A stretch of DNA of 64,000 bases from Flagellimonas oceani (GTDB lineage Bacteria; Bacteroidota; Bacteroidia; Flavobacteriales; Flavobacteriaceae). The number at the start of each line of letters is the position of its first letter. Position 1 is the first letter of the stretch. The stretch covers positions 2,274,501 to 2,338,500 of the forward strand of contig NZ_CP049616.1 in the NCBI RefSeq assembly GCF_011068285.1, in the 5' to 3' direction. Shown piece by piece: positions 16,392-41,318 of this stretch. A model generated the notes under the pieces. It made no database searches and was not told the origin of the DNA. It saw only the letters and a program-made list of their open reading frames with translations. The translations under genes and the position numbers were made by a program.

Positions 16392-16407
16392 ATGCAAAGG
16401 TTTGCAT
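16392..16407 (+). promoter_or_regulatory. LacI-type operator (inositol regulon, site A)
   Basis: ATGCAAAGGTTTGCAT, a 7-bp inverted repeat around GG, 80 bp upstream of the 16487 gene. It is identical to the sites at 28807 and 39220 and nearly so to 39381, linking this distant pair of genes to the regulator at 28863-29882. Confidence 0.75.
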
Positions 16408-16486
16408 AAAACAATACATCATTTCTTTCATATAATTGGACAAATGATATTTATTTGTTTACCCAAACAAACTAAATTTTATCCTT

Positions 16487-16978
16487 GTGCATATCATACT
16501 ACTGAAAGTCATCCTTATGCCATTACTTTCAATTGTGTTTGGTTGTATCAACGCAACACAGAGAACTCCCGATAACCAAGGTTTGACCGAAAAGATGGAG
16601 AGGCCCAAAATTTTTATTTTAGCGAACAATCAATCATGGTTGCATACGAGCGCATGTGGGGACAAAATGGTAAAAACTGCATTTGGTAGGGATGCTAAAG
16701 AAAGGGGTCTGTTTACCCATTCATTTATGACAAGTCCTTCACTTATCAATCCCGAAGAATCAACTTATCCCGTCCGGGCCATCCCTACCATAGAGTATCT
16801 GTGCATCTTAAATATTGAATCGGAAAAATGGCCCACGGGAGGACCAGATTTTGTATCATCCGACCGAACTAATCACCGAGATATGGATACCAGCCCCACA
16901 AAGACTCCACTTTGGCAATTAACAAACAGTGAGAAGTTTTGCGCACCTTATGAACCATCAAACCAGCCAATGAAATGA
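16487..16978 (+). CDS. Putative lipoprotein of unknown function, inositol regulon
   Basis: A 163-residue protein with a hydrophobic N-terminus and a possible lipobox ending at C20 ('LSIVFGC'), so probably a lipoprotein. The rest is not recognised; it includes 'FILANNQSWLHTSACGDKMVKTAFGRDAKERGLFTHSF' split over two probable strands and a polar C-terminal tail. Its stop overlaps the next ATG (ATGA), supporting a real coupled gene. The palindrome 80 bp upstream suggests co-regulation with inositol genes. No function is assigned. Confidence 0.6.
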   Translation: MHIILLKVILMPLLSIVFGCINATQRTPDNQGLTEKMERPKIFILANNQSWLHTSACGDKMVKTAFGRDAKERGLFTHSFMTSPSLINPEESTYPVRAIPTIEYLCILNIESEKWPTGGPDFVSSDRTNHRDMDTSPTKTPLWQLTNSEKFCAPYEPSNQPMK

Positions 16979-17931
16979 TTCAAAGAACAGCTGTCTTCGT
17001 TTTTCCTAGCCTAAGAGGCACTTTCAAATTACCATACTTTGTAATTCCACTCCTACTATGCTCTTTCCCGACGTGGTCCCAAAAAGTAAAGAATGTTCCC
17101 GAAGCATTCAACGACATCGATTCCAGTCCAACCACAATCCATATAAGGAACATCCTGGATGTCCCTACGGAAAATGGGCATTTTCAAGGGATTCAGGTAA
17201 TGGAAATCCATGGAAGAAAAAAACTTTTGGTTTCTGGAAGTTCGTTACACCGATCTTATATCCTACAAGCGGATTTAGAAAGCCAAGAAACCGACACCCT
17301 TATCACACTTATGAAAGATCCTTTCCGACATGCGGGAGGAATCCAAGTAAGCAATGGATATCTTGCGGTAGGGATTGAAGATAATTTCAATAAAACCAGG
17401 GCCAAGGCCAGCATCTACAACTATAGGAATGGTAACCTTTATAAGTCACTACCCGATATCACTATTGATAGGTTCGGGGAAGTGAAAAGACCAACAGCCG
17501 GTGCAACAGGACTATTGGCTCTCGACGAGGGTTATTTAATGGTAGTGGCCAATTGGGATTCCCGAATCTGGGATTTTTATGCCGTTGAACCTGAAAATGG
17601 AAAGTACAGGTTGCTCAAAAGTTTTGACGCACCTACCAATTGGGCAAGTTATCAATCCATCAATCTCATTATGGACGAAAAGCACATCTATGCCATTGGG
17701 TTCTATCAAGAAATGAATATTTCTCAAGCTGACCTTATTTATGTGAGCAGTGTGGATCACTTCGAGCCACAAATGGAAAAAATCGGAACAAAGTATTTCA
17801 ACTGCACCAATGGAGTGGATTTTATCGGCGCTGCGGGACTAGAAGTGGAAAATGGGGAGAAATTGAATATTTGGGCCACGCAAAAAAATGCTTTAGAAGG
17901 TATTGCGGTAAACATATTTTCAAAAAAGTAA
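16975..17931 (+). CDS. Exported protein, possibly beta-propeller, inositol regulon
   Basis: A 318-residue protein with a signal peptide (hydrophobic stretch about 21-32, cleavage near 'TWSQ'). The mature part is strand-rich with repeated 'GGIQVSNGYLAVGIED', 'GATGLLALDEGYLMVVANWD' and 'YQSINLIMDEKHIYAIGFY' blocks, spaced like propeller blades. I considered a beta-propeller phytase because of the inositol setting but see no conserved calcium or phosphate-binding motif. It is coupled to the lipoprotein upstream and shares its operator. Likely periplasmic or surface; activity unknown. Confidence 0.6.
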   Translation: MIQRTAVFVFPSLRGTFKLPYFVIPLLLCSFPTWSQKVKNVPEAFNDIDSSPTTIHIRNILDVPTENGHFQGIQVMEIHGRKKLLVSGSSLHRSYILQADLESQETDTLITLMKDPFRHAGGIQVSNGYLAVGIEDNFNKTRAKASIYNYRNGNLYKSLPDITIDRFGEVKRPTAGATGLLALDEGYLMVVANWDSRIWDFYAVEPENGKYRLLKSFDAPTNWASYQSINLIMDEKHIYAIGFYQEMNISQADLIYVSSVDHFEPQMEKIGTKYFNCTNGVDFIGAAGLEVENGEKLNIWATQKNALEGIAVNIFSKK

Positions 17932-18094
17932 AAGCATACCTTCCCCTCTTTAACAATACTACCATAAACCTAACAAACCAGTTGCAAATTTTCTGTTAGG
18001 GTAAAGGTAACATGTCCAGATAAACACGATTTATATTACTGAAATATAAATTTCACACCCTTATTATTGTAAACACAAACTAGTCATTGATACC

Positions 18095-18804: not shown

Positions 18805-19815
18805 TCAAACAATTTCAGCTAATCTTACCGGTCTATTTTCCTTTAAAGATTTTATGGCGGCAAGACCGATTTTGAGAGATTGCAATCCATCGTTACCATT
18901 GACGGGCACGTCAACCCCTTTTCCAAGACTATTTATAAAATCCTGTACTTCTACCATATACGCGTCCCTATATCTTTCCAAAAAGAAATGTAGTGGAAGA
19001 GCTGCATGTATCCCTTCGGCGTTGTACAGCTTATGGGAATCCATAAAATTATTATTAGACTGTACCATTCCCTCTGAACCAAAGACCTCGATCCTTTGAT
19101 CGTATCCATAAGATGCTTTTCTACTGTTATCTATTACGGCCATAGTTCCATCCGTATAGGTCAATGTGACTACCGCAGTATCTATGTCCCCGGCCTCGCC
19201 AATGGCCTTATCTATCAGAACAGTTCCTTTGGCATAAACCTCCTCAACCTCCTTATCAACCACAAAACGGGCCACATCGAAATCATGGATGGTCATATCC
19301 AAAAACAGTCCTCCCGATTTCTCAATATAGCTTATTGGTGGCGCCCCGGGGTCCCTGCTGGTTATTTTGACCAGATGAGGATGGCCAACCGCTCCATTTT
19401 GCACCAGTTCCTTAACTTTTTTGAATTCTTTGTCAAACCTTCGATTGAAACCCAACATTAATTTGACATTGGATTCCTCCACCACCTTAAGTACCTCGAC
19501 CACCCGTTGCAAGGACAAGTCCAAAGGCTTCTCACAAAATACATTTATTCCGGCCCTTACCGCCATTTCCACATATTCGGCATGGGTATCTGTTGGAGAG
19601 CATATTATTACCGCATCCAACGGAGCTGTGGCATCCAACATTTCCTTATATGCGGAAACAACACATGGCACATTCTTTTCTTTGGCGTACTGTCTACCTT
19701 CTTCCAAGGGATCCATGGCAGCCACGACTTCCACTCCCCGCATTTGGCAAAGGTTCCCTAAATGGATCTTGCCGATTCTCCCTAAGCCAGCAATGGCTAT
19801 TCTTAAATTTCTCAT
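18805..19815 (-). CDS. iolG: myo-Inositol 2-dehydrogenase (Gfo/Idh/MocA family)
   Basis: A 336-residue NAD-dependent dehydrogenase that oxidises myo-inositol to scyllo-inosose, the first catabolic step. The Rossmann motif is GLGRIG (10-15); the Gfo/Idh signature CEKP supplies K96; 'DMTIHDFD' gives D173 and H177, matching the catalytic Lys-Asp-His arrangement of IolG. It is the last gene of the iol operon, 16 bp after iolE, and adjoins the IS256 remnant. Confidence 0.92.
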   Translation of the reverse strand: MRNLRIAIAGLGRIGKIHLGNLCQMRGVEVVAAMDPLEEGRQYAKEKNVPCVVSAYKEMLDATAPLDAVIICSPTDTHAEYVEMAVRAGINVFCEKPLDLSLQRVVEVLKVVEESNVKLMLGFNRRFDKEFKKVKELVQNGAVGHPHLVKITSRDPGAPPISYIEKSGGLFLDMTIHDFDVARFVVDKEVEEVYAKGTVLIDKAIGEAGDIDTAVVTLTYTDGTMAVIDNSRKASYGYDQRIEVFGSEGMVQSNNNFMDSHKLYNAEGIHAALPLHFFLERYRDAYMVEVQDFINSLGKGVDVPVNGNDGLQSLKIGLAAIKSLKENRPVRLAEIV

Positions 19816-19831: not shown

Positions 19832-20737
19832 CTATAACCCTAATGTCTTGATATATTCCCTATTTGCCTTGGCACATATTTTTGGATTGCCCATCCCTGG
19901 AAGTATGTCTTGTTCCACTACGATCCAATCCTCATACCCCATATTATCCAAGATTTCCACGACCGATTTAAAATCCACATTCCCTTTGCCCAGTTCACAA
20001 AAGACACCTCTTTTCAAAGCATCAAAATAATCCCCTCCAATATTTCTGGATTCCTGTGCGGCCACTGGGTCATAGTCCTTAAAATGTACATGCCATATCC
20101 TGTCTTTGTATTTTTTTAGGGCTTTGACGGGATCGCCCCCACCAAATGCATAATGTCCCATATCAAGGCATAGCCCCAAAATATTTGGATCTGTCAACTG
20201 CATCAAAATATCTATTTCGTCAGGTGTTTCAACATACCCAGCACAATGATGGTGAAAAACAGTACGGATTCCATAGGCTTTTTTTACGCTACGGGCTATT
20301 TCCTCGGCACCCCTTGCAAAAATTGACCATTGTTCAGTATCCAAACCCATTTCGGAGCTGATTCTACCCGCGTTTATGGTTCTTTCCGGCACTGACGCAT
20401 TGTCATCGGCGAGTACGATGAAAGCCTTGTCATATCCGGCCATAGACATCAGTCGAGCAACCTGGATGGCAGATTCAATCCCCTTTTTGTGTTGATTTTC
20501 ATCTGTCAATGCAACAGGGACAAAGGCTCCCAAAAGCTCCAAGCCACGTTTGGATATCTCCTCCCTTAAACGTTTGGGGTCCGTTGGCATATAGCCCCAA
20601 TCACCAAGTTCGGTACCTAAGTAACCCGTTTCCTGTATTTCGTCCAAAACTTGCGCATAGCCTATTTCTTCGGATTTTTTATCGAGATCGAATTCCAGAG
20701 CTCCCCAAGAACAAGGAGCATTTGCTATTTTAATCAT
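19832..20737 (-). CDS. iolE: Inosose dehydratase
   Basis: A 301-residue xylose-isomerase-like TIM barrel that dehydrates scyllo-inosose to the trihydroxycyclohexanedione. The start 'MIKIANAPCSWGALEFDL' is characteristic of IolE, and metal-site segments are visible in 'TVFHHHCAGYVETPDEID', 'LCLDMGHYAFGGGDP', 'HVHFKDYDP' and 'IVVEQDILPG'. It lies 10 bp after iolA and 16 bp before iolG. Confidence 0.94.
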   Translation of the reverse strand: MIKIANAPCSWGALEFDLDKKSEEIGYAQVLDEIQETGYLGTELGDWGYMPTDPKRLREEISKRGLELLGAFVPVALTDENQHKKGIESAIQVARLMSMAGYDKAFIVLADDNASVPERTINAGRISSEMGLDTEQWSIFARGAEEIARSVKKAYGIRTVFHHHCAGYVETPDEIDILMQLTDPNILGLCLDMGHYAFGGGDPVKALKKYKDRIWHVHFKDYDPVAAQESRNIGGDYFDALKRGVFCELGKGNVDFKSVVEILDNMGYEDWIVVEQDILPGMGNPKICAKANREYIKTLGL

Positions 20738-20747: not shown

Positions 20748-22220
20748 TTAAAATTTACGGGACCATATATTTGGCCAACGTTCAATTACCACTTTGGTCT
20801 GTGTGAAAAATTCTATCGCGTGTTTTCCCTGGCCATGCAAATCACCAAAAAAGCTATCCTTCCAGCCACTGAACGGGAATTGCGCCATGGGAGCAGCAAC
20901 ACCTATATTTATACCGATGTTCCCTGCATCCGCTTCATTTCGAAATTTTCTGGCATTGGCACCACTTGTTGTGAACAAACATGCCATATTTCCATAGCTC
21001 CCATTGTTGACAAACTTTAAGGCCTCATCAATGTTTTTCATGGATATTAGGCTCATCACAGGACCAAAGATCTCAGTCCTTATCAGTTCTTTGTCCAATG
21101 CCACATTTTCCAATATGGTAGGTGTTATAAAATTTCCTTTTTCATACCCCTCAATCTTGGCTTTCCTTCCGTCCAATAGGATATTGGCCCCCTCATCTAT
21201 TCCCTTTTGTATAAGTCCTTCTATCCTTATTTTACTTTCTGGTGTGATAACCGGTCCCATATCCACATTGTCCAATCCATAGCCCGTGGTACGTTTTTTC
21301 ACCATTTCAAACAGGGATTCCTTAAATTCCCCTTTTTCATCACCTACGTTAATAATTGTCGATGCAGCAAGGCATCGTTGGCCTGCACATCCATATACTG
21401 AATCCGCGATAATTCTTGCGGACATTTCCTTATCGGCATCGGGCATAACAACAACAGGGTTTTTAGCGCCACCCTGTGCTTGAACACGTTTTCCATTTGC
21501 CGTTCCTTTAGAATAAATATAACGGGCCACAGGTGTACTTCCCACAAAGCTGATCCCTTTGACCAAGGGGTGTTCCAACAGCGCATCAACGGATTCCTTG
21601 CCCCCATGTACCAAACTCACCAACCCTTTGGGCAGATCCAATGTATCGATGAGTTCAAACACTTTCATCATGGTCAAAGGGACTTTTTCCGAAGGTTTAA
21701 CGATAAAAGCATTACCCGTTGCAATGGCATAGGGCAAAAACCAAAATACGATCATTCCCGGAAAGTTGAATGGCGTGATACAGGCCGATACCCCTAAAGG
21801 CTGTCGAATCATCATCTCATCAATCCCCGTTGCAATATCCTCAATAATATCCCCTCCCATAAGCATTGGGGTTCCACAGGCGACCTCTACATTTTCAATG
21901 GCCCGTTGAATTTCTCCAAGGGACTCAGCTTTAGTCTTTCCCGATTCATTTGTTATGATAACAGCCAACTCTTCCCGATGCTCCTCCAACAAAGATTTAA
22001 GCTTATAGAGCACTTGGACCCTTTTCATCACAGGAACCTTACTCCATTCCATATATGCACTATGAGCCGTTGTTACAGCACGATTAACGTCCTTAACGGT
22101 TTCATTGCCTAAGGGAACTTGAGCCAAAATTTCTTGATTGGCCGGGTTATAAACAGGTATCGTTTCCTTTGATTCACTCGTGGACCACTGTCCGTCAATG
22201 TAATTTTTTAAAATATTCAT
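20748..22220 (-). CDS. iolA: CoA-acylating (methyl)malonate-semialdehyde dehydrogenase
   Basis: A 490-residue aldehyde dehydrogenase. The catalytic Cys283 is in 'GCAGQRCLAAS'; the Asn in 'ITPFNFPG' and 'GGAKNPVVVMPDAD' are family motifs of the MMSDH group, whose members form acetyl-CoA or propionyl-CoA with loss of CO2. Here it would convert malonate semialdehyde from the aldolase step into acetyl-CoA, ending the pathway. The alternative mmsA role in valine breakdown is chemically the same; the iol context favours IolA. Confidence 0.92.
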   Translation of the reverse strand: MNILKNYIDGQWSTSESKETIPVYNPANQEILAQVPLGNETVKDVNRAVTTAHSAYMEWSKVPVMKRVQVLYKLKSLLEEHREELAVIITNESGKTKAESLGEIQRAIENVEVACGTPMLMGGDIIEDIATGIDEMMIRQPLGVSACITPFNFPGMIVFWFLPYAIATGNAFIVKPSEKVPLTMMKVFELIDTLDLPKGLVSLVHGGKESVDALLEHPLVKGISFVGSTPVARYIYSKGTANGKRVQAQGGAKNPVVVMPDADKEMSARIIADSVYGCAGQRCLAASTIINVGDEKGEFKESLFEMVKKRTTGYGLDNVDMGPVITPESKIRIEGLIQKGIDEGANILLDGRKAKIEGYEKGNFITPTILENVALDKELIRTEIFGPVMSLISMKNIDEALKFVNNGSYGNMACLFTTSGANARKFRNEADAGNIGINIGVAAPMAQFPFSGWKDSFFGDLHGQGKHAIEFFTQTKVVIERWPNIWSRKF

Positions 22221-22256: not shown

Positions 22257-23855
22257 CTATGAATTACTTCCAAGCAATACATATATCAAAACGGTGACCA
22301 AACAAAGCCCAATGGACATAGCCTTGGTATATTTCCATGACACAAGGCTTACCGCTCCAACATCGGTCATTTCATAACTATCCTGTCTGGGATAATAATG
22401 GGAAACAACAAACATGATGATTACGTTCATCACAAATTCAATGCCCCATAGGTGCACAAAATGAATACCATGGCCGGTGTATATCCACGACATGAAGATG
22501 TAGAATGCAAGTCCAAAAAACAAAGCGGCCTTTGCCCCCGTTGCAGATACCCGCTTCATAAAAAATCCGGCCAGGAGAATAGAAGCTATGGGGATAAAAT
22601 ATATTCCGTTAAGTTCTTGTAACAGTTGATAGAGCCCATCGGGGGCGTTGGCCATCATTGGCGCAGTAAAAATCGCCACCACCGCCAATATTGCGGAAGT
22701 CGATTTGCCAACGAACACAAGTTTACGATCACTGATATCTTTCTTGAAATGTTTCTTTACAATATCAATACTAAAAAGCGTGGCCACTGAGTTGAGCACG
22801 GAATTGAAGGTACTCAAAACCGCCCCCATAATGACAGCGGCAAAAAAACCGATCAACCACACAGGCAATACCTTTTTGACCAGTTGGGGATAAACACTGT
22901 CCTGTTGGTCATAATACGCGTCTTGAAAATAGAAGAAACATATAACCCCGGGCAATACAATGATCAAAGGAATCAAAATTTTGAACAATCCGGTCAACAA
23001 TAGCCCTTTTTGTGCTTCCTTTAAGTTCTTTGCTCCCAAGGCTCTTTGAATTATCGTTTGGTTCATCCCCCAGAAATACAATTGGTTAATTATCAACCCG
23101 GTAAAAAGCACCTCAAAGGGCAATACCGAATCAGGGGCGCCTATCACATTAAATTTCTCCGGTGCAAATTCATACACTTTGTAGAGGCCGTCCAATGGAT
23201 TACCATCCCCGATGGCCACCAAGGCAAGAACTGGAATCAGCAAACCTCCCAACAAAAGTCCAAAACCATTAATGGTATCTGAAAATGCAACAGCCTTCAA
23301 CCCCCCAAAAATGGCATAAATGGATCCTATGGCACCTATGATGACCACGGTGATCCATAAACCCTCCGTTTTATCCACCCCAAGGATTTCAGAAACCCCG
23401 AACAAACTTTCTATACCAATGGCCCCTGAATACAAGACAATGGGCAAGAGCGTTACAACAAATGAAAAGATAAGGATAACTGCCACCAGTGACCTCGTGA
23501 AGCCATCAAACCGTTTTTCGAGGAATTGCGGTATGGTAGTAAGTCCCATTTTAAGATATTTGGGCACAAAAAACACAGCTGCCACGACCAGGGCGATTGA
23601 GGAGGTAACCTCCCAAGCAATCACAATAAATCCATTGACGTACGAATTGCCGTTCATACCGATCAAATGTTCCGAGGAAATATTTGTCAATAGCATAGAT
23701 CCGGCTATGACAGTTCCTGTCAAGCTTCTCCCCCCCAAAAAATAGCCATCCGAAGATTTTAAGTTGGTCTTTCTAAGGCTGTACCAAGTAAAGTATGCAA
23801 CCCCAACAGTGAATAGAATAAATGAGGTGAAGATGATGAATAAGTCAGAGTCCAT
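22257..23855 (-). CDS. Sodium/solute symporter (SSS family), probable inositol importer
   Basis: A 532-residue protein with about 13-14 hydrophobic helices across its length. Family segments include 'YFLGGRSLTGTVIAGSMLLTNISSEHLIGMNG' split over helices 1-2 and 'GLKAVAFSDTINGFGLLLGGLL'. SSS members couple sodium entry to uptake of sugars, inositol and others. Its place between iolD and iolA (36-bp gaps) points to inositol as substrate, an inference from context. Confidence 0.88.
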   Translation of the reverse strand: MDSDLFIIFTSFILFTVGVAYFTWYSLRKTNLKSSDGYFLGGRSLTGTVIAGSMLLTNISSEHLIGMNGNSYVNGFIVIAWEVTSSIALVVAAVFFVPKYLKMGLTTIPQFLEKRFDGFTRSLVAVILIFSFVVTLLPIVLYSGAIGIESLFGVSEILGVDKTEGLWITVVIIGAIGSIYAIFGGLKAVAFSDTINGFGLLLGGLLIPVLALVAIGDGNPLDGLYKVYEFAPEKFNVIGAPDSVLPFEVLFTGLIINQLYFWGMNQTIIQRALGAKNLKEAQKGLLLTGLFKILIPLIIVLPGVICFFYFQDAYYDQQDSVYPQLVKKVLPVWLIGFFAAVIMGAVLSTFNSVLNSVATLFSIDIVKKHFKKDISDRKLVFVGKSTSAILAVVAIFTAPMMANAPDGLYQLLQELNGIYFIPIASILLAGFFMKRVSATGAKAALFFGLAFYIFMSWIYTGHGIHFVHLWGIEFVMNVIIMFVVSHYYPRQDSYEMTDVGAVSLVSWKYTKAMSIGLCLVTVLIYVLLGSNS

Positions 23856-23891: not shown

Positions 23892-25751
23892 TTAGAGATA
23901 ATACTTTTGTTGTTTTTTATTTTCCCGGTAGGTTTTATAGGATGCGTTGACTTCTTCCTTTTGTGAAACTTCGGCTACTGCAACGTCCCACCAGGCAAAT
24001 CCGGGCACCGCCTTTTTGCGGTCCACCTCTATGTATATCAAAGTCGTCCGATCTATTTTCTTCGCCTCTTTGAGGGCTTGGTGCAACTCACTCACATTGG
24101 AAGCTTTGATAACATGGGCCCCCATACTGGCCGCATTGGCAGCATAATCAACGGGCAACAACCCACCGTCCAACTGTTGGGTCTCCTCATTTCTGTACCG
24201 ATAATAGGTCCCAAATCCGTCACTTCCCAAAGAAGCGGATAACGAGCCTATACTGGAATATCCATCATTGTTCAACAACACGATGGTAAGCTTTTTTCTT
24301 TCCTGTATTGAGGTAACGATTTCCTGGGACATCATCAGATAACTCCCATCACCAACCATCACATAGACCTCGTTATCGGGGCGCGCCATCTTGGCGCCCA
24401 ATCCACCCGCGATTTCATACCCCATACAGGAATAGCCATATTCCAAATGAAAACCTTTGGGGTCTCTTGTCCTCCATAGTTTATGCAAGTCGCCCGGCAA
24501 ACTCCCGGCAGCACAAAGGACAATGTCCCTGGCATCCGAAAAATTGTTTACCGCTCCAATGACCTCACCCTGAAAAGCAGGTGATTCGTTCCTTTCGCTG
24601 TAGATTTCTTCCACAAAACTGTCCCAGCTTTGATTCAGTTCCACTACCCTTTTCCTATAGGTTTCCATCACTTCAAAATCGGAAAGATGTTCGTAAAGTT
24701 CTTCCAGTACCGCCTTGGCATCCCCCACCAAGGGTAAAGCGCCATGTTTAAAACAATCAAATTCGGTCACATTGATATTGATAAAACGTACATTGGGGTT
24801 TTGAAACCCTGATTTGGACACTGTGGTAAAATCACTGTACCGTGTACCTATACCAATAACCACATCAGCATCCTTGGCCATTTCAATGGCACCTGGTGTC
24901 CCCGTTACCCCGATGGCACCAAGGTTTTGAGGGACATCATAAGGCAAAGAACCTTTTCCTGCATATGTTTCCCCCACCGGGATACCTGTTCGTTCAACCA
25001 GTTTTTGCAATATTTCAGTAGCTCCGCTGTAAATCACACCTCCTCCAGCTACAATAAAGGGTTTTTTACTTGCCCTAATTAAGGTGACCGCTCTCTGTAA
25101 AAGGGAACGATCTGGCAATGTCCGGCCAATAGGCCAGGTCTTTTTACGGAACATATCAATCGGAAAATCAAATGCTTCCGCCTGTACGTCTTGGGGGATG
25201 CCAAGGGTTACAGCACCAGTATCAGCTGGGGATGTCAATACCCGCATAACCTCTGGGAGTGCAGTAATCAATTGCTCTGGGCGGTTGATACGGTCCCAAT
25301 ATTTAGACACGGGCTTAAAGCAATCGTTTACCGAAACGTCCTGGGAAATACTGGATTCCAGTTGTTGAAGGACCGGAGCCACTTGTCTGGTCGCAAATAT
25401 ATCACCTGGTATCAATAATACAGGGATTCGGTTTATGGTGGCCAAAGCAGCGCCTGTAACCATATTTGTGGCTCCAGGCCCAATGGATGTCGTGCACACA
25501 AAGCTCTCCAAGCGGTTCTTTACTTTAGCATATGCCACCGCAGCATGCACCATGGCCTGTTCATTACGTGCAACATAGAACGGAAAATCCGGCTCTTGCT
25601 GCAAAGCCTGTCCGATGCCTGCTACATTACCGTGTCCCAGGATACCGAAACATCCGGCAAAAAACTTGTGTTCCTTTCCATCTCGTTCCACATACTGGTT
25701 TTTCAAATAGGCTATGGTTGCCTGTGCCACCGTTAATCGTATTGTCTTCAT
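23892..25751 (-). CDS. iolD: 3D-(3,5/4)-trihydroxycyclohexane-1,2-dione hydrolase
   Basis: A 619-residue thiamine-diphosphate enzyme that opens the ring to give 5-deoxy-glucuronate. I use the ATG at 25751 ('MKTIRLTVAQATIAYLKNQY'), the usual IolD start; an upstream in-frame ATG adds 33 residues of unlike composition. Domains in order: Pyr domain with 'VARNEQAMVHAAVAYA', a central domain, and PP domain with 'GDGSYLMMSQEI...LNNDGYSSIG' for Mg-ThDP binding. A 99-bp gap separates it from iolC, the longest in the operon. Confidence 0.94.
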   Translation of the reverse strand: MKTIRLTVAQATIAYLKNQYVERDGKEHKFFAGCFGILGHGNVAGIGQALQQEPDFPFYVARNEQAMVHAAVAYAKVKNRLESFVCTTSIGPGATNMVTGAALATINRIPVLLIPGDIFATRQVAPVLQQLESSISQDVSVNDCFKPVSKYWDRINRPEQLITALPEVMRVLTSPADTGAVTLGIPQDVQAEAFDFPIDMFRKKTWPIGRTLPDRSLLQRAVTLIRASKKPFIVAGGGVIYSGATEILQKLVERTGIPVGETYAGKGSLPYDVPQNLGAIGVTGTPGAIEMAKDADVVIGIGTRYSDFTTVSKSGFQNPNVRFININVTEFDCFKHGALPLVGDAKAVLEELYEHLSDFEVMETYRKRVVELNQSWDSFVEEIYSERNESPAFQGEVIGAVNNFSDARDIVLCAAGSLPGDLHKLWRTRDPKGFHLEYGYSCMGYEIAGGLGAKMARPDNEVYVMVGDGSYLMMSQEIVTSIQERKKLTIVLLNNDGYSSIGSLSASLGSDGFGTYYRYRNEETQQLDGGLLPVDYAANAASMGAHVIKASNVSELHQALKEAKKIDRTTLIYIEVDRKKAVPGFAWWDVAVAEVSQKEEVNASYKTYRENKKQQKYYL

Positions 25752-25850
25752 TGGTTTTCTTCTATGGTGTTTAGTTAATTGCCACGTTTCGGGTACCATC
25801 ATTTGAACACCCTTTTTGTTTACACAACTTTGGATACTGCGGGCCCACAA

Positions 25851-33044: not shown

Positions 33045-34568
33045 TTAGTTATCCCTGTTACAAAATTCATTATTGTCCGTCTTGTCGGCGATGAAATTTG
33101 GTTTATGGGAATCCTCCCATTGGGGTGCATCCGTATCAAAATCATAGTTACACATCACATTGTCCACATTCCAGCCGGATAAGTCCTGATTGAAGACTTT
33201 GTTTTCTTTGAACAAATTCTGCATGTTCACTACATTGCTCACATCCCATCCTGAAATATCTTGATTAAAAGCACAGTCTTCACCTCCGAACATGGTCTCC
33301 ATATTGTCAAGTCCACTCACATCCCATCCGGTTATCGAAGGGTTGTTGAACCCACTATCCTTGAACATATCCCACATACTCAACACCTTACTTACATCCC
33401 ATGCGCTTAAATCCCCATTAAAATCCGACTCACGGAACAATTCACGCATGGTCACGACATTGCCCAGTTTATCACCCCATCCTGAAAGGTCTTGATCAAA
33501 GGCATCGTTCCCTCTAAAAGTGGATTGTAAACTCGTCACATTCGAGATATTCCAAGATCCGATTGGTTGGTTGAACGGACAATCCCTGAACATATTCTTC
33601 AAAGTTGTTGCTTTGCTTACATCCCATCCAGAGATATCCTGGTCAAAGGCAGAATCCCTGAACATCGTTTCAAAAGTGGTGACATTCCCCACATCCCATT
33701 TGTCCAAGGGTTGGTTATAGCTGGATGCTTTATAAAAAACATCTTGCATATTGGTCACCCCACTAACGTCCCAATGGTTGATATTACTGTTGAAGGAGGT
33801 GGCTTCTCTGAACATCGCCTTCAGCGTAGTGGTTCCACTTAAATCAGGGGCATCGGATGCCGAGATCTGCAGATTGGAACATCCCCTAAAATAGGCTTCT
33901 TCGTTACCCAGTTTCAGCTGACCCCAATTGGTTACATCTATTATATTGTCCGCACTTTGGTCGGTCTTATAAAAATTGAAGCCCTCGATGGCCCCCCACA
34001 CAGTTACCGTATAATCCCCGGCCTCCGTATACGTATGGGTGGCAGACTCAAGATCATATGTGGCGACGATGCTTTCCGTTCCATCACCCCAAAAAACCTT
34101 AAAGTTATAGGTCCCTGTTTCAACCAACGGAAGGGTAATACTTTCATCAGCTCCAACACGCCATACGGTTACAAATTCATCATCGGACTCGAAAGGCTCC
34201 AAGACTTTTAGGTTTACCGAATATTCTTCCTCCAGACCAAATCCAGTTACCAAAAGGGAAGACGTTCCCGTGCCGAAACTATCCCCGGAGGCAGGGGATG
34301 TGGTAATCCCCTCGCTAAGATATATGGTCAATATGATCTCGCTGGCATCACAATCACTCGGTAATGAAGCTGTGATACTTCTAGAAGGGTTTGACACTGA
34401 AACTTCAATATCCTCCTCCACACAACTGTTCTTCGCCGCTTCGATTATAATGGATTCAATATAGACGTCCCTGTCGTCCACGGAATAATCGGTACTATCC
34501 ACATCGCAGGAGTATACTGCTACCCCAATACTTGCAGCGATCAAAATCAATTTATAAAAACGTTTCAT
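33045..34568 (-). CDS. DUF285 (BspA-like) repeat surface lipoprotein with PKD-like domain
   Basis: A 507-residue lipoprotein (lipobox ending C21, 'VAVYSC'). After an N-terminal beta region comes a PKD-like segment ('FKVFWGDGTES...HTYTEAGDYTVTVWG') and then about nine copies of a ~23-residue repeat of the form 'MFRDSAFDQDISGWDVSKAT'. DUF285/BspA repeats form solenoids used in adhesion and binding. It occupies the gene position behind susD normally taken by a surface glycan-binding protein, so it probably captures the ligand or anchors cells to lipid or host surfaces. Confidence 0.85.
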   Translation of the reverse strand: MKRFYKLILIAASIGVAVYSCDVDSTDYSVDDRDVYIESIIIEAAKNSCVEEDIEVSVSNPSRSITASLPSDCDASEIILTIYLSEGITTSPASGDSFGTGTSSLLVTGFGLEEEYSVNLKVLEPFESDDEFVTVWRVGADESITLPLVETGTYNFKVFWGDGTESIVATYDLESATHTYTEAGDYTVTVWGAIEGFNFYKTDQSADNIIDVTNWGQLKLGNEEAYFRGCSNLQISASDAPDLSGTTTLKAMFREATSFNSNINHWDVSGVTNMQDVFYKASSYNQPLDKWDVGNVTTFETMFRDSAFDQDISGWDVSKATTLKNMFRDCPFNQPIGSWNISNVTSLQSTFRGNDAFDQDLSGWGDKLGNVVTMRELFRESDFNGDLSAWDVSKVLSMWDMFKDSGFNNPSITGWDVSGLDNMETMFGGEDCAFNQDISGWDVSNVVNMQNLFKENKVFNQDLSGWNVDNVMCNYDFDTDAPQWEDSHKPNFIADKTDNNEFCNRDN

Positions 34569-34589: not shown

Positions 34590-35966
34590 TTAATACCCTG
34601 GGTTCTGTTCCATTTCCGTAATATCCACTTCAGCTTGTGGAAGAGGGGCCAACAAACGAAAGGGGTCCACTGTAATGTTCCTGCCTTGATCCTGAAAAAA
34701 TGAATTCATCGTCTCAATGGCCTTTCCTGTTCTCAAAAGATCGCCCCAACGATGCCCCTCGCCTACGAGTTCCAATCTTCTTTCAAGTGCAATGGCATCG
34801 CGCATACTGGCTTTATCTGTTGCCGTGGTTTCCCCAAGATTCGCCCGATTCCTTACAAGGTCAAGATAGGTCTTGGCCAAGGGCGTTTTATCGTTCTCAT
34901 TCAAACATTCTGCATATAACAATAGAACATCCGCATACCTTACCACATAATGGTTGTCCCCCCCATCACTGTTATTACTATTGGGAGAAGGGGTCCATTT
35001 ATCGATATAGTACACATTGTTCGATACATTGATAAAATTCCTCCGCAAATCATCCGTTTCGTAGAGATCGTACAGGGAACTTTCCATTGCCATGGCACCC
35101 ATACCCCCTTGGTTGTCAGGTTGCGTAAACAAGTAATAAAACCTGCTTCCCTCACTCATACCATCCAAATTCGAGGCATATTGGATACTAAAGACATCCT
35201 CGTCATTCCCTTCATTCTCCACTCCAAAGAGCCCTTCGATTGGGGCAAGGCCATATTTATTGGAATTCACAATAATTTCCAATTGATCCTCAGCTTGACC
35301 GAACAGTTGTCTTTTCATATAGTGTTTGGCCAAAATTGCCCTCGCCGCATATTGGTCAGCCCTACCTGTACTGTTGTTTTTGGGCAATAGTTCAATGGCA
35401 TCCAGCAAATCTCTCTCGATTTGGTCATATATCTCGGCAACAGGGGTCCTGGTATCATCAAAGGCATTGGTCGGGTCGTCTATGGTCAATACCAATGGAA
35501 CATCCCCATAGATAGTCGTCAGAATGTCATATAAAAATGCCCTGATGAATTTCATTTCACCTATACGGACACTTTTCAGGGACTCACTATCGTACACTAC
35601 CTCATCAATAACATCCAAAACCGTATTCGCATATAAAATCCCTTCATAGCAATTTTCCCAGATACTACCGACAAATCCGTCGGTACTTGTCCATGAAAAA
35701 TCCTCCAAGGACCTGGCGCCCCCATTTGAGTTTGGCGCTTGTATATAAGCATTATCCGTAGGAATCTCTCCCCAAAGAATCATATAGTAATCATAGAGCG
35801 CCTGTAATTCATTGTACGTGGCGTTCACTGTGGATTCCACATTATCCTGGTCTGTATAATAATTATCTGCCAATATTCCTGTTTCAGGAAACTGATCTAA
35901 CTCGCTTTCACAAGCAATGCATAACAGCAGTGCTGATATGACAATAAATGTTCTTTTTATAATCAT
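34590..35966 (-). CDS. susD: SusD/RagB outer-membrane substrate-binding lipoprotein
   Basis: A 458-residue lipoprotein (Cys19) with the SusD layout: 'LDQFPETGILADNYYTDQDNVESTVNATYNEL' start, TPR-like helices, 'VRYADVLLLYAECLNE' and 'ERRLELVGEGHRWGDLLRTG' near the end. SusD caps the SusC channel and binds the imported molecule. It starts 12 bp after susC. The ligand is unknown; the regulon suggests an inositol-containing compound. Confidence 0.94.
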   Translation of the reverse strand: MIIKRTFIVISALLLCIACESELDQFPETGILADNYYTDQDNVESTVNATYNELQALYDYYMILWGEIPTDNAYIQAPNSNGGARSLEDFSWTSTDGFVGSIWENCYEGILYANTVLDVIDEVVYDSESLKSVRIGEMKFIRAFLYDILTTIYGDVPLVLTIDDPTNAFDDTRTPVAEIYDQIERDLLDAIELLPKNNSTGRADQYAARAILAKHYMKRQLFGQAEDQLEIIVNSNKYGLAPIEGLFGVENEGNDEDVFSIQYASNLDGMSEGSRFYYLFTQPDNQGGMGAMAMESSLYDLYETDDLRRNFINVSNNVYYIDKWTPSPNSNNSDGGDNHYVVRYADVLLLYAECLNENDKTPLAKTYLDLVRNRANLGETTATDKASMRDAIALERRLELVGEGHRWGDLLRTGKAIETMNSFFQDQGRNITVDPFRLLAPLPQAEVDITEMEQNPGY

Positions 35967-35978: not shown

Positions 35979-38900
35979 TTATTGAAATGATAGATTAATA
36001 CCTGCAGAAATTAGTCTCGGAACACCAGTGGTTCCCTGGATGTGTCCCCTATTAAGTGGATTTCCCGTATTACCTCCATCCGGGTTCATCCCCCTGTAAT
36101 CCGTCCAAGTATACAAGTTATTGGCGGATACATAAACCCTCAGGCTTTGAAGGTGCAGTTGCTCCAAAATTGTCTTTGGCAGGTTATACCCCAATTGTAC
36201 ACTCCTCAATCTTAAATAATCCGCATCCAATACATTATAGTTGGTTGGGTTTCTACTAGCCTTTCTTGTCGCTGTATTTCCATAGGCATCAGGCGGCGCC
36301 AAAAATCCATCGGGATTTCGAGTAGCATCCCAGTAATTGTTGAAATAGTAATAGTTGGTATTGGTAAAAGCTTCTCCATATTCCAAATAACGTGAGGTCA
36401 TTTCATCAAATGCGACCCTACCCATGGTCCCATTAAAGTTCATGTTGAAGTCAAATCCTTTGTAGGCTAGGTTAATTCCAAAACCATAGGTCACTTCTGC
36501 ATTGTAATCTCCCAAAAGTACCCTGTCGTTTGCATCTATTACGTCGTTCCCATCGGTATCCTGAAAGATATAATCTCCCACTTCCGCAGAGAGGGTAGTA
36601 TTTTTTCTACTGGTATATTCCTGCACCTCTTCTTCCGATTTAAGGATTCCGATAATCTTGTAGCCATATAAGTTGGCCAATGATTCCCCGACCCTTGTAA
36701 TAAATCTTTGGTTGCTTCCTTCATACAGTTCTTCGGCTCCACCGAGGGAAAGGATTTCATTGTTATTGGTTGCTAGATTGGCATTTAGTCCAAGGCTAAG
36801 GTCTCCAAACCTGAAGTCCGAGGCACTAAGGTTGAATTCCCAACCCTTGTTCCTCATTTCACCTATATTTTGCAATGATGTATTAAAGCCGGTATGTTTG
36901 GGTACCGGTCTATCCAAGAGAAGGTCTGTAATATCCGCGATATAATAGTCCACCCCCAATCTCACCTTGTTAAAGAAGGTGAAATCGGCACCAAAGTTAT
37001 TGGACGTATTGGTTTCCCATCCCAAATTATAGGATGGTGCACTCGATGGTGCTGCCCCAGGATATAACGTACTGTCATAGGGATAATCCCTTCCCGTACT
37101 TATTGAGGCATATTGTGCATAGTTTCCTATTTGGTTATTCCCGGTCTCTCCCCAACTATAGCGTAGCTTGGCATAGGTTAAAATATCATTTTCAGGAAAG
37201 AAGGATTCATTGCTCAACACCCAACCCGCAGAGAAAGATCCAAAGGTACCGTACCTATTGTCCTTACCAAAGCGTGAGGACCCATCGGTTCTAATGGAAC
37301 CAGACAGAAAATATGTATTGTCATAATTGTACATCAGCCTACCGAAATAGGAAAGTTGAGCCCATCTACTTCTGGAAGCACCTGCCGTCTGTACAGTTGA
37401 CCCATCGATATTTTCAATGATATCATTGGGGAAATCATAACCGTCCACAGAAAGGGAAGTATAGGTACTTTTCTGGAAACTCTGTCCCAACAAGGCGTTG
37501 AACGAATGTTTCCCAGTCTCAAAAGTATAATTTGCCGTATTTTCAATCAGGATATCACCTTGGTCACTCCTGCTCTCCGATCCCTGTTGTGAATCCCTCT
37601 CGCTGATCAATTCCCTATAGGCTCCAGTCAACATGGGGGCATATTGATCTGTAAAGCTAGAATGGTACAGAAAGCCCAATGAGGTTTTCAGTTCCAAGTT
37701 TTTAATAGGCTCATAGGAGAGGTAAGTGTTCCCAAAAGTCCTGAACTCCCTTCTTTGGTATTTGGACAATTCTGCCATGGCCACGGGATTTTCCTGCATA
37801 TTGGCATTGTAAGGCCTATTGGCCCGAATCTGTGCTTCTATATTATAGCCCGTGGGGTCTGTATCGTCATAGGCAGAAAAGAAAGGATACATATACACCA
37901 TTGCCCTTCCTGCTGGGTCTATGGGGTAACGATACTGATTACTTCCGCCCGTGAGTCCCCGTTCCGCATAATATCCATTGACATTGACCCCATATTTAAA
38001 GTGTTTACCCAATCTGGTATTTACTTTGATATTGGCTGTATAACGTTGTTGATCAGCCGTAATCACAATACCTTCCTCATCCGTATACCCCAACGACACC
38101 GAATAATCGGTATTTTCATTGGCTCCAGAGACACCCACATGATAGTTTTGTACAACACCTGCCCTGTATACGGCATCTTCCCAGTCAAAATCGGTCAATC
38201 CTTGTTCATTGTTAAGGTAGGGAACGGTGTAATCAAGGATAAGTTCCCTAACATTGGCCCCATTGGCAATGCGTTCTTCCTCCGTATCGTTGATACTAAC
38301 ATTGGCATGGTTCTTCACGTATGCATTGTTACGGGCATCCTTAAAGAAGACCGCAGCATCATAGGCATTTAACAAATCATAGCTGCCCGTGCGCTCTTGG
38401 ATTCCCATAACTGAACGTATCTCTACCGTTGTTTTTTTGCTCCTTCCCTTTTTGGTGGTAATCATGATAAGGCCATTGGCAGCACGGGAACCGTAAATGG
38501 CCGATGAAGCGGCATCCTTGATAACATCTATACTTTCAATGTCATTGGGGTTGAGCACGTTCAAGGAACTGCCTTCCGCCAATGGAAAACCATCCACGAC
38601 CACCAAAGGATTGGCATCCCTGGTAATGGAACCCGCCCCACGAATGGTTATCGTATTACCATCCCCAGGGTTTCTTGCGTTGGTCAAAATATCCACCCCA
38701 GGCAATTTTCCAACGATGGCTTGGTCAATATTGGCATTTGAATACTGTTGGATATCCTCCGCGTCAACGCTTGCAACAGCACCTGTAATTCTTTCCTTTG
38801 AACTCGTACCATAACCGATTACTACTACATCATCCAACACATTGCTGGCCTCCTTCATGACAAAATCAATCGTTTGCGTAGTAGGACCAACTTTTCTTTC

Positions 38901-39140
38901 CATCGTCTCGAATCCCAAATAGGAAGCCACCAATGTAGGTGCATTCGATAATGTAGTAATTGTGTATCGTCCATTAAAATCAGAAACTGCTCCATTGGCA
39001 GTCCCTTTCTCTATTATACTGGCTCCTGGCAAGGGGACCCCCTCACTGTCAGAAACCGTACCACTTATTGTTTGCTGTGCCCACATTGTAGTTGTCGCAC
39101 CAATAAGAAAAATGAATATCAATAATTTAAATTTCTTCAT
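35979..39140 (-). CDS. susC: SusC/RagA TonB-linked outer-membrane transporter
   Basis: A 1053-residue SusC, start chosen at 39140 ('MKKFKLLIFIFLIGATTTMWAQQ', a good signal peptide) rather than the upstream in-frame codon at 39179. It has a carboxypeptidase-D-like domain ('TISGTVSDSEGVPLPGASI'), the plug with 'VVIGYGTSSKERITGAVASV' and 'VVDGFPL', and a beta-barrel to the C-terminal 'ISAGINLSFQ'. It imports the ligand held by SusD using TonB energy. Its promoter holds operator C, 80 bp upstream. Confidence 0.95.
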   Translation of the reverse strand: MKKFKLLIFIFLIGATTTMWAQQTISGTVSDSEGVPLPGASIIEKGTANGAVSDFNGRYTITTLSNAPTLVASYLGFETMERKVGPTTQTIDFVMKEASNVLDDVVVIGYGTSSKERITGAVASVDAEDIQQYSNANIDQAIVGKLPGVDILTNARNPGDGNTITIRGAGSITRDANPLVVVDGFPLAEGSSLNVLNPNDIESIDVIKDAASSAIYGSRAANGLIMITTKKGRSKKTTVEIRSVMGIQERTGSYDLLNAYDAAVFFKDARNNAYVKNHANVSINDTEEERIANGANVRELILDYTVPYLNNEQGLTDFDWEDAVYRAGVVQNYHVGVSGANENTDYSVSLGYTDEEGIVITADQQRYTANIKVNTRLGKHFKYGVNVNGYYAERGLTGGSNQYRYPIDPAGRAMVYMYPFFSAYDDTDPTGYNIEAQIRANRPYNANMQENPVAMAELSKYQRREFRTFGNTYLSYEPIKNLELKTSLGFLYHSSFTDQYAPMLTGAYRELISERDSQQGSESRSDQGDILIENTANYTFETGKHSFNALLGQSFQKSTYTSLSVDGYDFPNDIIENIDGSTVQTAGASRSRWAQLSYFGRLMYNYDNTYFLSGSIRTDGSSRFGKDNRYGTFGSFSAGWVLSNESFFPENDILTYAKLRYSWGETGNNQIGNYAQYASISTGRDYPYDSTLYPGAAPSSAPSYNLGWETNTSNNFGADFTFFNKVRLGVDYYIADITDLLLDRPVPKHTGFNTSLQNIGEMRNKGWEFNLSASDFRFGDLSLGLNANLATNNNEILSLGGAEELYEGSNQRFITRVGESLANLYGYKIIGILKSEEEVQEYTSRKNTTLSAEVGDYIFQDTDGNDVIDANDRVLLGDYNAEVTYGFGINLAYKGFDFNMNFNGTMGRVAFDEMTSRYLEYGEAFTNTNYYYFNNYWDATRNPDGFLAPPDAYGNTATRKASRNPTNYNVLDADYLRLRSVQLGYNLPKTILEQLHLQSLRVYVSANNLYTWTDYRGMNPDGGNTGNPLNRGHIQGTTGVPRLISAGINLSFQ

Positions 39141-39219: not shown

Positions 39220-39235
39220 ATGCAAAGGTTTGCAT
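39220..39235 (-). promoter_or_regulatory. LacI-type operator (site C) upstream of susC
   Basis: ATGCAAAGGTTTGCAT, 80 bp from the susC ATG and identical to sites A and B. It places the outer-membrane operon under the inositol regulator. Confidence 0.82.
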
Positions 39236-39380
39236 TGGTTAATCTTTAATTTGCAAGTATTTAACCCTGGATTCACATAGGTTTTTTAACCAATTTAAAG
39301 AACTCAACCCAATCCATATCGAGGCTATCAAATCATAGGTTCACAACCAATTGAAAATTAAGCAACAACCATCGTTATTT

Positions 39381-39396
39381 GTGCAAACCTTTGCAC
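39381..39396 (+). promoter_or_regulatory. LacI-type operator (site D) upstream of the phosphatase fusion
   Basis: GTGCAAACCTTTGCAC, the same core in reverse orientation with G/C outer bases, 105 bp before the fusion ATG. A further half-like TTTGCAAAG follows at about 39408. The 360-bp divergent gap thus has one site per promoter. Confidence 0.78.
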
Positions 39397-39500
39397 AATA
39401 TTTTTTTTTTGCAAAGCATTTTTGTCGTTGTTTTGAATAGGTAAATTCCTATTCCGCCATGTTGATGGCACTTTCATAAATATTAACAAAATCCAGTTTT

Positions 39501-41318
39501 ATGAGCCTTTCTTTTGGTAAATCCGAATCTTTCAAATTTATAAGGATTCTTTTTTTGCTATACTTTGTATCCGTGCACCTATCTGCCCAAGAAGTACATT
39601 CACATAATGACTATGAGCAAGATATTCCCTTTTGGAAAGCTTTTTCCGGGGGAGCCCAATCCATAGAGGTGGATATATATTTAAGGGATGGTATTTTGTA
39701 TGCTACCCATGAGGCCTCGGAAATAGTAGAAGATAGAACCATTGAAAGTTTATATTTACAGCCTATCCAAAAAGCGATTGCGCTAAATTTGTTAAATCAA
39801 GAACACTTTCAACTACTGATCGATATCAAGTCAGAAGCTGTACCTACCTTGGAAAGATTGATGTTGGTATTGCAAGATTATCCTGAAATAAAGAACCATT
39901 CGAACATTACATTGACAATATCTGGGAATCGTCCCCCTGTCCACACGTATTCGAGCTATCCTTCATACATAATGTTCGATTATCAAAGCCTAGAGGATAT
40001 CAACGATCCAAAACAATGGGACAAAGTTGCACTTATCAGTCTTAATTTTAAGAAGATATCCAAATGGAATGGGTTAGGCAGGTTAACAGCATCGGATTAT
40101 ATAAAAGTTGAAGAGACCATTGATAAAGCCCATAGCTATGGCAAACCATTCAGGTTTTGGGCCACACCGGACACCAAGACTGCCTGGAGGGCTTTGGCCA
40201 AACTAGGTGTGGACTACATCAATACAGACACCCCTTTTAGCTGTGGGGAATTTCTTGTCTCAATGCCCAAAAGGACTTTTAAGAACAAACAAATCTCCAA
40301 AGTATATAAGCCAAGCTACGCTTCAGACCAAAAAGAAAGTACCGTTGAAAACGTCATCTTCCTTATTGGTGATGGAAATGGGCTATCCCATATTTCTTCT
40401 TCCGTTTTGGCCAACGGTGGCGCATTGACCCTTACTCAGCTAAAAAGCATCGGTTTTCTAAAAACAGCCTCCGCAGATGATTTCACCACTGATTCGGCCG
40501 CTGCTGGCACAGCTTTGGCAACAGGGTCCAAAACGTACAACAGGGCCATTGGACTGGATACGCTTAGAGCCCCACTTGCCAATATGCCCGAAGTTCTTTC
40601 CAAAGCAGGTTTCATCTCTGGTTGTATCACTACAGACAAATTAACAGGGGCTACACCTGCATCCTTTTATGCACACCAAGAAGATCGATCATACACCGAA
40701 GAGATTGCAGCAGATTTGTCAAAGAGCCGACTTTCGTTGTTCATGGGTGGAGGTGAAAATGATTTTGAAGACAAGGAGACATTACAAGGATTCAAAATCA
40801 TAAACCACATAGAAGATATAGGAAACTCCAAAGATAAAAGAGTCGGACACTTTTTTGCAAAAGGTGATCTACCTGGGGTTATCGAGGGCAGGGATGATCT
40901 ATTGGCCAAAGCAACCAAAAATGGCATTGCTTTCCTAAAATCCAAAAAAAAGCCTTTTTTCCTGATGGTGGAAGGAGCCAAGATAGATAAATATGCACAC
41001 CTGAACAATGCTCCCGGCGTCGTCAGCGAAGGCATAGATTTCGACAAAGCCATTACCGAAGCCATCAAATTTGCGGACCGTTCGGGCAACACGCTTGTAA
41101 TTATAACCGCGGACCACGAAACTTCCGGTTTTAGCATCCCACAGGGAAGTATCCAAGACCATTGGGTAGAAGGTGATTTCACCACCCATGACCATACCGC
41201 CGCCATGGTTCCCATATTTGCTTATGGCCCCTATTCCCATAAATTTCAGGGTGTTTATGAAAACAACGAGGTTTTCCATAAAATCATGGACATTCTGAAT
41301 ATACAAAACGGTGAATAA
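39501..41318 (+). CDS. Phosphodiesterase (PI-PLC/GDPD-like)-alkaline phosphatase fusion
   Basis: A 605-residue exported protein (signal peptide to about 30). Residues 31-260 are a PI-PLC/GDPD-superfamily barrel: 'VHSHNDYEQ' (catalytic His), 'SIEVDIYLRDG' (metal E-x-D) and 'ATHE'. Residues about 285-605 are an alkaline phosphatase: 'NVIFLIGDGNG', the nucleophile S332 in 'TTDSAAAGTA', 'VEGAKIDKYAH', 'ITADHETSGFS' and 'HDHTAAMVPIFAYGP', so all metal-ligand motifs are present. One polypeptide could cut a phosphodiester such as glycerophosphoinositol and remove the phosphate, freeing inositol for SusCD or diffusion. It diverges from susC with its own operator. Confidence 0.88.
   Translation: MSLSFGKSESFKFIRILFLLYFVSVHLSAQEVHSHNDYEQDIPFWKAFSGGAQSIEVDIYLRDGILYATHEASEIVEDRTIESLYLQPIQKAIALNLLNQEHFQLLIDIKSEAVPTLERLMLVLQDYPEIKNHSNITLTISGNRPPVHTYSSYPSYIMFDYQSLEDINDPKQWDKVALISLNFKKISKWNGLGRLTASDYIKVEETIDKAHSYGKPFRFWATPDTKTAWRALAKLGVDYINTDTPFSCGEFLVSMPKRTFKNKQISKVYKPSYASDQKESTVENVIFLIGDGNGLSHISSSVLANGGALTLTQLKSIGFLKTASADDFTTDSAAAGTALATGSKTYNRAIGLDTLRAPLANMPEVLSKAGFISGCITTDKLTGATPASFYAHQEDRSYTEEIAADLSKSRLSLFMGGGENDFEDKETLQGFKIINHIEDIGNSKDKRVGHFFAKGDLPGVIEGRDDLLAKATKNGIAFLKSKKKPFFLMVEGAKIDKYAHLNNAPGVVSEGIDFDKAITEAIKFADRSGNTLVIITADHETSGFSIPQGSIQDHWVEGDFTTHDHTAAMVPIFAYGPYSHKFQGVYENNEVFHKIMDILNIQNGE

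Follow-up and report, generated by a model that had tools for sequence, protein, structure and literature searches.

A polysaccharide-utilisation-like locus in Flagellimonas oceani predicted to join SusCD capture of an inositol phosphodiester to inositol catabolism under LacI control

The window analysed here, a 64,000-nucleotide stretch of the 4.61-Mb single-contig genome of the marine bacterium Flagellimonas oceani (NZ_CP049616.1, positions 2,274,501 to 2,338,500), holds a locus in which genes of surface-capture and phosphodiesterase type adjoin a set for inositol catabolism, two kinds of system that tend to be treated separately. Read from right to left on the minus strand, the order is susC, susD, a DUF285 lipoprotein gene, a gene for a lipoprotein resembling phosphatidylinositol-specific phospholipase C (PI-PLC), an alpha/beta hydrolase gene, a LacI-family regulator gene, iolJ, iolB, iolC, iolD, an SSS symporter gene, iolA, iolE and iolG. 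A gene fusing a glycerophosphodiester phosphodiesterase (GDPD) to an alkaline phosphatase (AP) lies on the plus strand, divergent from susC. A first-pass annotation of the same DNA had named this set, and every gene in it is present as an open reading frame.

Among the minus-strand inositol genes, profile scores exceed the cut-offs for iolG, inositol 2-dehydrogenase (18805..19815; TIGR04380, 426.5 bits, cut-off 355), iolA, the CoA-acylating (methyl)malonate-semialdehyde dehydrogenase (MMSDH; 20748..22220; TIGR01722, 552.7 bits, cut-off 448.5), iolD, trihydroxycyclohexanedione hydrolase (23892..25850; TIGR04377, 916 bits, cut-off 715), iolC, 5-dehydro-2-deoxygluconokinase (25851..26864; TIGR04382, 377.7 bits, cut-off 300) and iolB, 5-deoxyglucuronate isomerase (26857..27747; TIGR04378, 296.6 bits, cut-off 205). 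The iolD alignment begins at residue 38 of its frame, and the true start probably lies 30–40 residues within it. The SSS-family symporter, the probable inositol importer (22257..23855; NF007790 (SSF), 710.6 bits, cut-off 401), is encoded between iolD and iolA. The IolE-like inosose dehydratase (19832..20737) reaches 204.5 bits with TIGR04379, below the cut-off of 290, and is named also by its operon position; the IolJ-like class-II aldolase (27744..28715; PF01116, 256.6 bits) is assigned by family and position only. The earlier gene names thus stand at cut-off for most families, the exceptions being IolE, IolJ and the PI-PLC-like protein, which also scores below its threshold. With IolG, IolE, IolD, IolB, IolC, IolJ and IolA found together, a complete set for inositol catabolism at the locus is supported by the sequence.

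The capture genes begin with the adjacent susC and susD pair that marks PUL-type loci (PUL, polysaccharide utilisation locus): a SusC-like TonB-dependent transporter (35979..39140, minus strand; TIGR04056 (SusC/RagA), 836.7 bits on frame 35979-39179, cut-off 368.25) and a SusD-like lipoprotein (34590..35966, minus strand; PF07980 (SusD_RagB), 117.5 bits, cut-off 23.1). They are followed on the same strand by a DUF285 surface lipoprotein with PARCEL-type repeats (33045..34568; PF03382, 226.5 bits, cut-off 25; TIGR02167 over cut-off), whose N terminus, like that of the PI-PLC-like protein, is of lipoprotein type by eye, and, beyond the PI-PLC-like gene, by an alpha/beta hydrolase of the sugar-esterase-like BD-FAE family (30161..31033; PF20434, 75.6 bits), with the esterase/lipase-like 6a6o and 7dwc as nearest solved structures. 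The GDPD-AP fusion (39501..41318, plus strand) matches PF13653 (GDPD_2; 39.3 bits, cut-off 27) and PF00245 (Alk_phosphatase; 189.8 bits, cut-off 24.4) behind what by eye is a plain signal peptide; its residues H33, H35, N36, E56, D58 and H70 are kept in eight of eight sequences, and the nearest solved structure to its phosphatase half is 2w5v. Pfam scans of the locus proteins returned no glycoside hydrolase or lyase, and we therefore class the locus as built like a PUL, not as a polysaccharide PUL. SusCD together with a phosphodiesterase and phosphatase is also the gene content of a PUS-type locus (PUS, phosphate utilisation system, a Pi-responsive SusCD locus).

The PI-PLC-C1-like lipoprotein (31068..32975, minus strand) has an unusual build according to profile and structure work, with a predicted propeller inserted at about residues 93–390 between PLC-like flanks. 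A weak match to the Pfam family PI-PLC-C1 (PF16670) at E ≤ 0.01 is shared by 27 of 28 aligned proteins, and of 37 hit rows 4 carry a precomputed PF16670 label, among them a distant protein from an actinobacterium; the homologue in a genome of another genus (G561) scores 20.7 bits. A profile of seven canonical PI-PLC-C1 proteins matches both propeller flanks, in order, in 24 of the 28, the N-terminal piece never being significant alone. H63, N64, E90, D92 and H393, which we take to be catalytic, are invariant in the alignment.

The regulator (28863..29882, minus strand; PF00356 and PF13377) belongs to the LacI family, and a palindrome of the pattern TGCAAA-ss-TTTGCA stands at four promoters of the locus. 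As TGCAAAGGTTTGCA or its complement it occurs exactly at 16393 (16393..16406, ahead of a sulfatase remnant), 28808 (28808..28821, the iol operon promoter), 39221 (39221..39234, the susC promoter) and 39382 (39382..39395, the GDPD-AP promoter), each time 80–105 bp ahead of the start codon. Searched genome-wide as TGCAAANNTTTGCA, the pattern gives five matches, four of them in this locus, and the reversed control pattern gives none; a first-order model of the window expects about one match per genome (P ~3e-11 for four in 25 kb). The fifth and sole out-of-locus site, TGCAAATCTTTGCA (G000:C1:955350-955363; L035:1501-1514), lies, by eye, between FecR-like and SusC-like genes.

The block recurs in six relatives, five genomes of the same genus (G028, G012, G001, G051 and G043) and a separate record (L017), which with the window make seven loci. 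Comparing the order of susCD, PI-PLC-like and iol genes across genomes, a check that the first-pass annotation had proposed, shows that it is kept in all six: block order, LacI and operators are whole in G028, G012, G001 and G051, L017 is the same until its contig ends inside iolA, and G043 has the same order without the DUF285 and esterase genes. The PLC-like protein itself was found in 6 of 60 genus genomes (counting the window's) and in none of 39 further genomes of the order, and, with shallower scoring, in 1 of 395 order genomes (its own) and 2 of 397 family genomes (its own and G561). All six genus genomes with the PLC-like gene have IolD, with iol in the same block; IolD overall is present in 11 of 71.

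In all six relatives, iolJ, susC and GDPD-AP are each preceded by the operator; the four shared palindromes noted in the first pass are exact in the window. The susC site is unchanged in seven of seven aligned loci, inside a longer conserved stretch, and the 12 specified bases of the GDPD-AP site are kept in six of seven, with one change in G051, while the DNA around that site has otherwise diverged. The iolJ site is found in three further genomes of the genus (G032, G037 and G052), and the fourth operator also precedes the sulfatase of G043 (at 32324) and G051 (at 36641). A regulator gene, a shared palindromic operator at its target promoters and conservation of both across species are the marks of a LacI-type regulon, and they support reading the block as one conserved regulon under predicted LacI control. 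The strongest evidence that its two halves form a single regulon is that both operators in the susC/GDPD-AP intergenic DNA are kept in the seven loci.

The SusCD-DUF285-PLC core also lies in A. abyssi (L018:1833-11884), A. aurea (L021:1835-11884) and G561 (contig C1, about 1529767). No iol genes, LacI of this kind or operator occur in the pieces examined of these three, those of L018 and L021 ending soon past the PLC gene; the G561 core adds a GDPD without the phosphatase half. Upstream of the core are genes for an ECF-type sigma factor and FecR in L018 and L021, and for FecR in G561, and in all three the SusC protein has an N-terminal extension of about 100 residues (an STN domain being over cut-off only in G561), which the window SusC lacks. 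A midpoint-rooted tree of 13 SusC proteins, four of them outgroup rows with long branches, places the six iol-linked proteins in one clade (100/99), which L018/L021 join first (84/99), with G561 outside. On gene content, FecR-type control in place of LacI on the same core amounts to a regulatory swap; as the iol-linked clade is without the extension, the joining seems to have been accompanied by a rewiring of regulation.

The other IolD genomes of the genus are five, G032, G037, G052, G029 and G026. G032 and G037 carry LacI and a single operator ahead of iolJ, without the PLC block; in G037 a PIG-L gene stands beside LacI. G052 (C1:690537-718025; L059, L060) carries LacI-iol with four operators, together with another SusCD, a PIG-L deacetylase and an FG-GAP/ASPIC protein next to two large proteins that resemble it. 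The contigs of G029 and G026 are short and showed no operator and no LacI. From these arrangements, it seems that more than one kind of capture module can be joined to the LacI-iol unit.

The gene behind the leftmost operator is not intact: it is what an internal deletion has left of an S1-type sulfatase gene (16487..16978, plus strand), whose 163-residue frame matches both ends of the intact 526-residue sulfatase of G043 (L033:12419-13999; PF00884, 135.1 bits; SGSH_C, 73.9 bits) and has lost the middle. The nearest solved structure to the G043 enzyme is an S1_8A sulfatase. The G051 copy is likewise internally deleted, which, with the intact gene in G043, means that the ancestral regulon had one more enzyme. 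The gene lies beyond GDPD-AP in G043 and G051 and at the opposite block end in the window, so one arrangement must have been rearranged; the remaining loci showed no sulfatase in the flank covered (1.7 kb only for L017). Adjoining it, in the window and in G043 (80% identical), is a conserved protein with no Pfam or NCBIfam match (16975..17931, plus strand). An IS4-family transposase gene lies to the left at 14994-16157, and with an apparent decayed transposase at about 18184-18665, recognised by eye, it brackets the remnant and this protein. Esterase and lost sulfatase together hint at a decorated natural substrate.

Do PI-PLC-type genes keep company with inositol catabolism elsewhere? Seven of 70 genus genomes have canonical PI-PLC-C1, and these overlap with neither the 6 propeller-form nor the 11 IolD genomes. 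All seven have myo-inositol oxygenase (MIOX; 27 of 70 overall), which in six lies about 7 kb from PI-PLC-C1, with a symporter 63–67% identical to the window's, and in G038 about 40 kb away. G038 (L074:9740-17795) also brings canonical PI-PLC-C1, SusD, SusC and GDPD-AP together, the window's enzyme set with a distant SusCD. IolD and MIOX never occur together in the 70 genomes (0 of 11; Fisher 0.0048, which ignores kinship), and of 60 genus genomes, iol or MIOX is present in all 13 that hold a PLC of either type and in 20 of the other 47. Across 397 family genomes, PI-PLC-C1 is present in 29 (two by weak partial matches), MIOX in 61 and both in 23 (Fisher 8e-16, again ignoring kinship); in 16 genomes of 15 genera the two lie on one contig within 25 kb. 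A spread over fifteen genera at such distances makes chance an improbable explanation.

Gene content around these pairs was read in 16 pieces of 20 kb (L091-L106; matches above 60 bits). PLC is found in 16, MIOX in 15 (the one other piece stopping short of it), a relative of the window symporter in 15 (55–72% identical), GH92 in 13 (10 at 53–69% identity, three as distant best matches at 27–28%), a metallophosphoesterase in 9, SusC in 8, SusD in 8 and GH29 in 7 (four at 74–78%, three at 28–32%). None of the pieces matched the window IolD, IolG, IolE, LacI, GDPD-AP or propeller PLC, and the seven same-genus MIOX-type pieces contain no operator of the window's kind. GH92 enzymes are alpha-mannosidases, and the PI-PLC-C1/MIOX loci therefore fit mannosyl-inositol-phosphate compounds. 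They form a second, widespread class of inositol locus (L091-L106 and, in the same genus, L072, L073 and L075-L078) that looks like a system for utilisation of such compounds, resembling glycosylphosphatidylinositol (GPI) or phosphatidylinositol mannosides (PIM). As a pattern of gene neighbourhoods, the family-wide linkage of PI-PLC-type genes with inositol catabolism lends independent support to an inositol substrate for the window locus.

Genes of conjugative type lie on both sides of the window locus: to the left an integrase (2558-3856) and a DUF5712 protein adjoining a coupling protein (9464-12117), to the right TraN, TraM and a TraG ATPase (41855-48147) and RteC (54071-54910). Probable accessory genes of the element encode a Fic/DOC-family protein (4528-6093) and an AbiEii-type protein, the latter gene having a small partner upstream (13212-14704). 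G028 has the RteC gene in common with the window, as well as the SusCD locus beyond it; in the 60 kb examined of that genome, the tra, integrase and coupling proteins of the window have no match. G043 shows a partial integrase match some 25 kb past the locus. From this context, the locus is probably cargo of a conjugative element or inserted beside one.

What would the block feed on? We consider it probable that it encodes a LacI-controlled, PUL-style system for an inositol phosphodiester, most likely phosphatidylinositol or deacylated glycerophosphoinositol. The genes, their order in seven loci and the operators with their conservation are read directly from the DNA; the steps proposed here follow from gene order and from general family functions. 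The DUF285 and SusD lipoproteins would hold the substrate at the surface, where the PI-PLC-like lipoprotein would cut it to release inositol phosphate, and TonB-energised uptake through SusC would bring in the soluble product. In the periplasm, leftover glycerophosphodiester could be cut by the GDPD half of the fusion and phosphate removed by its phosphatase half, while the esterase may strip acyl groups. The SSS symporter would then bring inositol into the cell for conversion to central metabolites by IolG-E-D-B-C-J-A, and inositol or a derivative would free the four operators from LacI. As to the form taken up, the PLC suggests intact phosphatidylinositol and the GDPD glycerophosphoinositol; both are possible.

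The first-pass annotation had likewise proposed one system that captures an inositol lipid or phosphodiester, frees the inositol and consumes it, and the conserved regulon, complete catabolism and family-wide PLC-inositol linkage support this in part; the substrate may be a lipid, a deacylated head group or another inositol phosphodiester. Several observations weigh against the preferred reading. The PI-PLC-like protein scores 20.3 bits with PF16670, below the cut-off of 29.9; structure comparison matched the propeller alone, and the C-terminal piece is poorly predicted (pLDDT 39.1). Near the operators no consensus flavobacterial -7 box was found. The linkage statistics ignore shared descent; of the 29 PI-PLC-C1 holders, 6 are without MIOX, including the two that match PI-PLC-C1 weakly and in part, and in 7 it lies far off or on another contig; and the symporter relatives were counted within the 16 pieces. 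Plain phosphatidylinositol does not explain a broken sulfatase and a sugar-esterase-like hydrolase. Finally, the A. abyssi, A. aurea and G561 genomes, which hold the core, have IolD only below cut-off (247–249 of 715 bits) and MIOX was not found in them; the core may therefore have begun as a non-inositol system, possibly directed at phosphodiesters or phosphate.

These last genomes favour a reading as mainly an organic-phosphorus scavenging locus of PUS type, acting on any glycerophosphodiester, with inositol catabolism as an added by-product pathway. The published PUSI likewise pairs SusCD with a PF16670-type phosphodiesterase under phosphate control, according to the accessible part of that report (PMC8115612); the GDPD without phosphatase half in G561 would fit too, as would the joining of canonical PI-PLC-C1, SusCD and GDPD-AP in G038 with MIOX some 40 kb off. 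We nevertheless judge this unlikely, for the SusC and GDPD-AP promoters share the operator of the iol operon in seven of seven loci (one with the one-base variant), and iol shares the block in six of six same-genus genomes with the PLC-like gene. More doubtful still is that the target is an inositol-bearing glycan or sulfated inositol conjugate, in which the PLC-like protein would cut an internal phosphodiester while sulfatase and esterase strip decorations. The operator-controlled S1_8-like sulfatase intact in G043, the sugar-esterase-like hydrolase, the GH92/GH29 genes beside PI-PLC-C1 and MIOX elsewhere, and PIG-L with another SusCD under the same operator in G052 all point that way; yet no glycoside hydrolase was found among the scanned proteins between the outermost window operators, and the sulfatase survives as a mere remnant in the window and G051, while in the flanks covered (just 1.7 kb for L017) G043 alone of the seven loci has it intact. 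It is very unlikely that two unrelated neighbours, an inositol and a phosphodiester system, merely travel together, for example as cargo of a conjugative element. Iol without the PLC block in G032, G037 and G052, the core without iol in three genomes, and the conjugation genes on both flanks are what such an arrangement would leave, but the operator is common to both halves in seven of seven loci, and the single iol-linked SusC clade without the FecR-form extension points to regulation rewired at the joining.

Under the preferred reading, an inositol-phosphodiester system, the SusCD paradigm would extend from glycans to lipid head groups. Membranes of eukaryotes typically contain inositol lipids, and a dedicated route from surface to cytoplasm would allow a genetic approach to the recycling of algal membrane lipids by marine bacteria, as a source of carbon and not of phosphorus alone. 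Of interest, too, are the unusually built PLC-like enzyme and the predicted operator. It is possible, and we suggest it tentatively, that SusCD-type systems for eating inositol phospholipids or inositol phosphoglycans, as sources of both carbon and phosphate, were assembled independently at least twice in marine flavobacteria: the iol type, with its new propeller PLC, LacI regulon and swappable capture modules, and the far more widespread MIOX type, with PI-PLC-C1 and GH92, which would fit mannosyl-inositol-phosphates such as GPI-anchor cores. Inositol phosphates are reported in the sea, with Flavobacteriia contributing phytases (accessible part of PMC12406696), and myo-inositol is among the metabolites correlated with Muricauda and another genus in coral microalgae cultures (accessible part of PMC10611727).

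How does the locus compare with known systems? The first pass knew of no description of a SusCD-based inositol-lipid locus as a unit, which is right in part: SusCD with a PF16670-type phosphodiesterase has been published, and no report of a SusCD locus joined to inositol catabolism was found in a search that left most subscription journals and preprints outside. The joining of SusCD-PLC capture to inositol catabolism thus appears to be the new part, SusCD with PI-PLC having its precedent in PUSI of Flavobacterium johnsoniae (PusCD1, Fjoh_4172/4173; PMC8115612). As far as the accessible part of that report goes, PusCD complexes are induced by phosphate depletion, and PUSI, with a Ca2+-dependent phosphoinositide-PLC-type protein (pf16670) beside SusCD as in the window, is thought to take phosphodiesters; inositol catabolism, as encoded in the window locus, is not mentioned there. 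Bacterial iol clusters consist, as here, of IolG-E-D-B-C-J-A with a transporter and a regulator, and occur in 3% of 2,227 Bacteroidetes species and 2% of 810 Flavobacteriaceae species; SusC is not named in the accessible part of that survey (PMC9430895). The MIOX-type PI-PLC-C1 loci of 15 flavobacterial genera share with the window a PI-PLC-type enzyme, inositol catabolism, a related symporter and often SusCD, but differ in their canonical PI-PLC-C1, in myo-inositol oxygenase in place of iol, and in GH92/GH29. With canonical PULs, finally, the window has in common SusC, SusD, surface lipoproteins and a local regulator, whereas its scanned proteins include phosphodiesterases and a phosphatase where those loci would have glycoside hydrolases.

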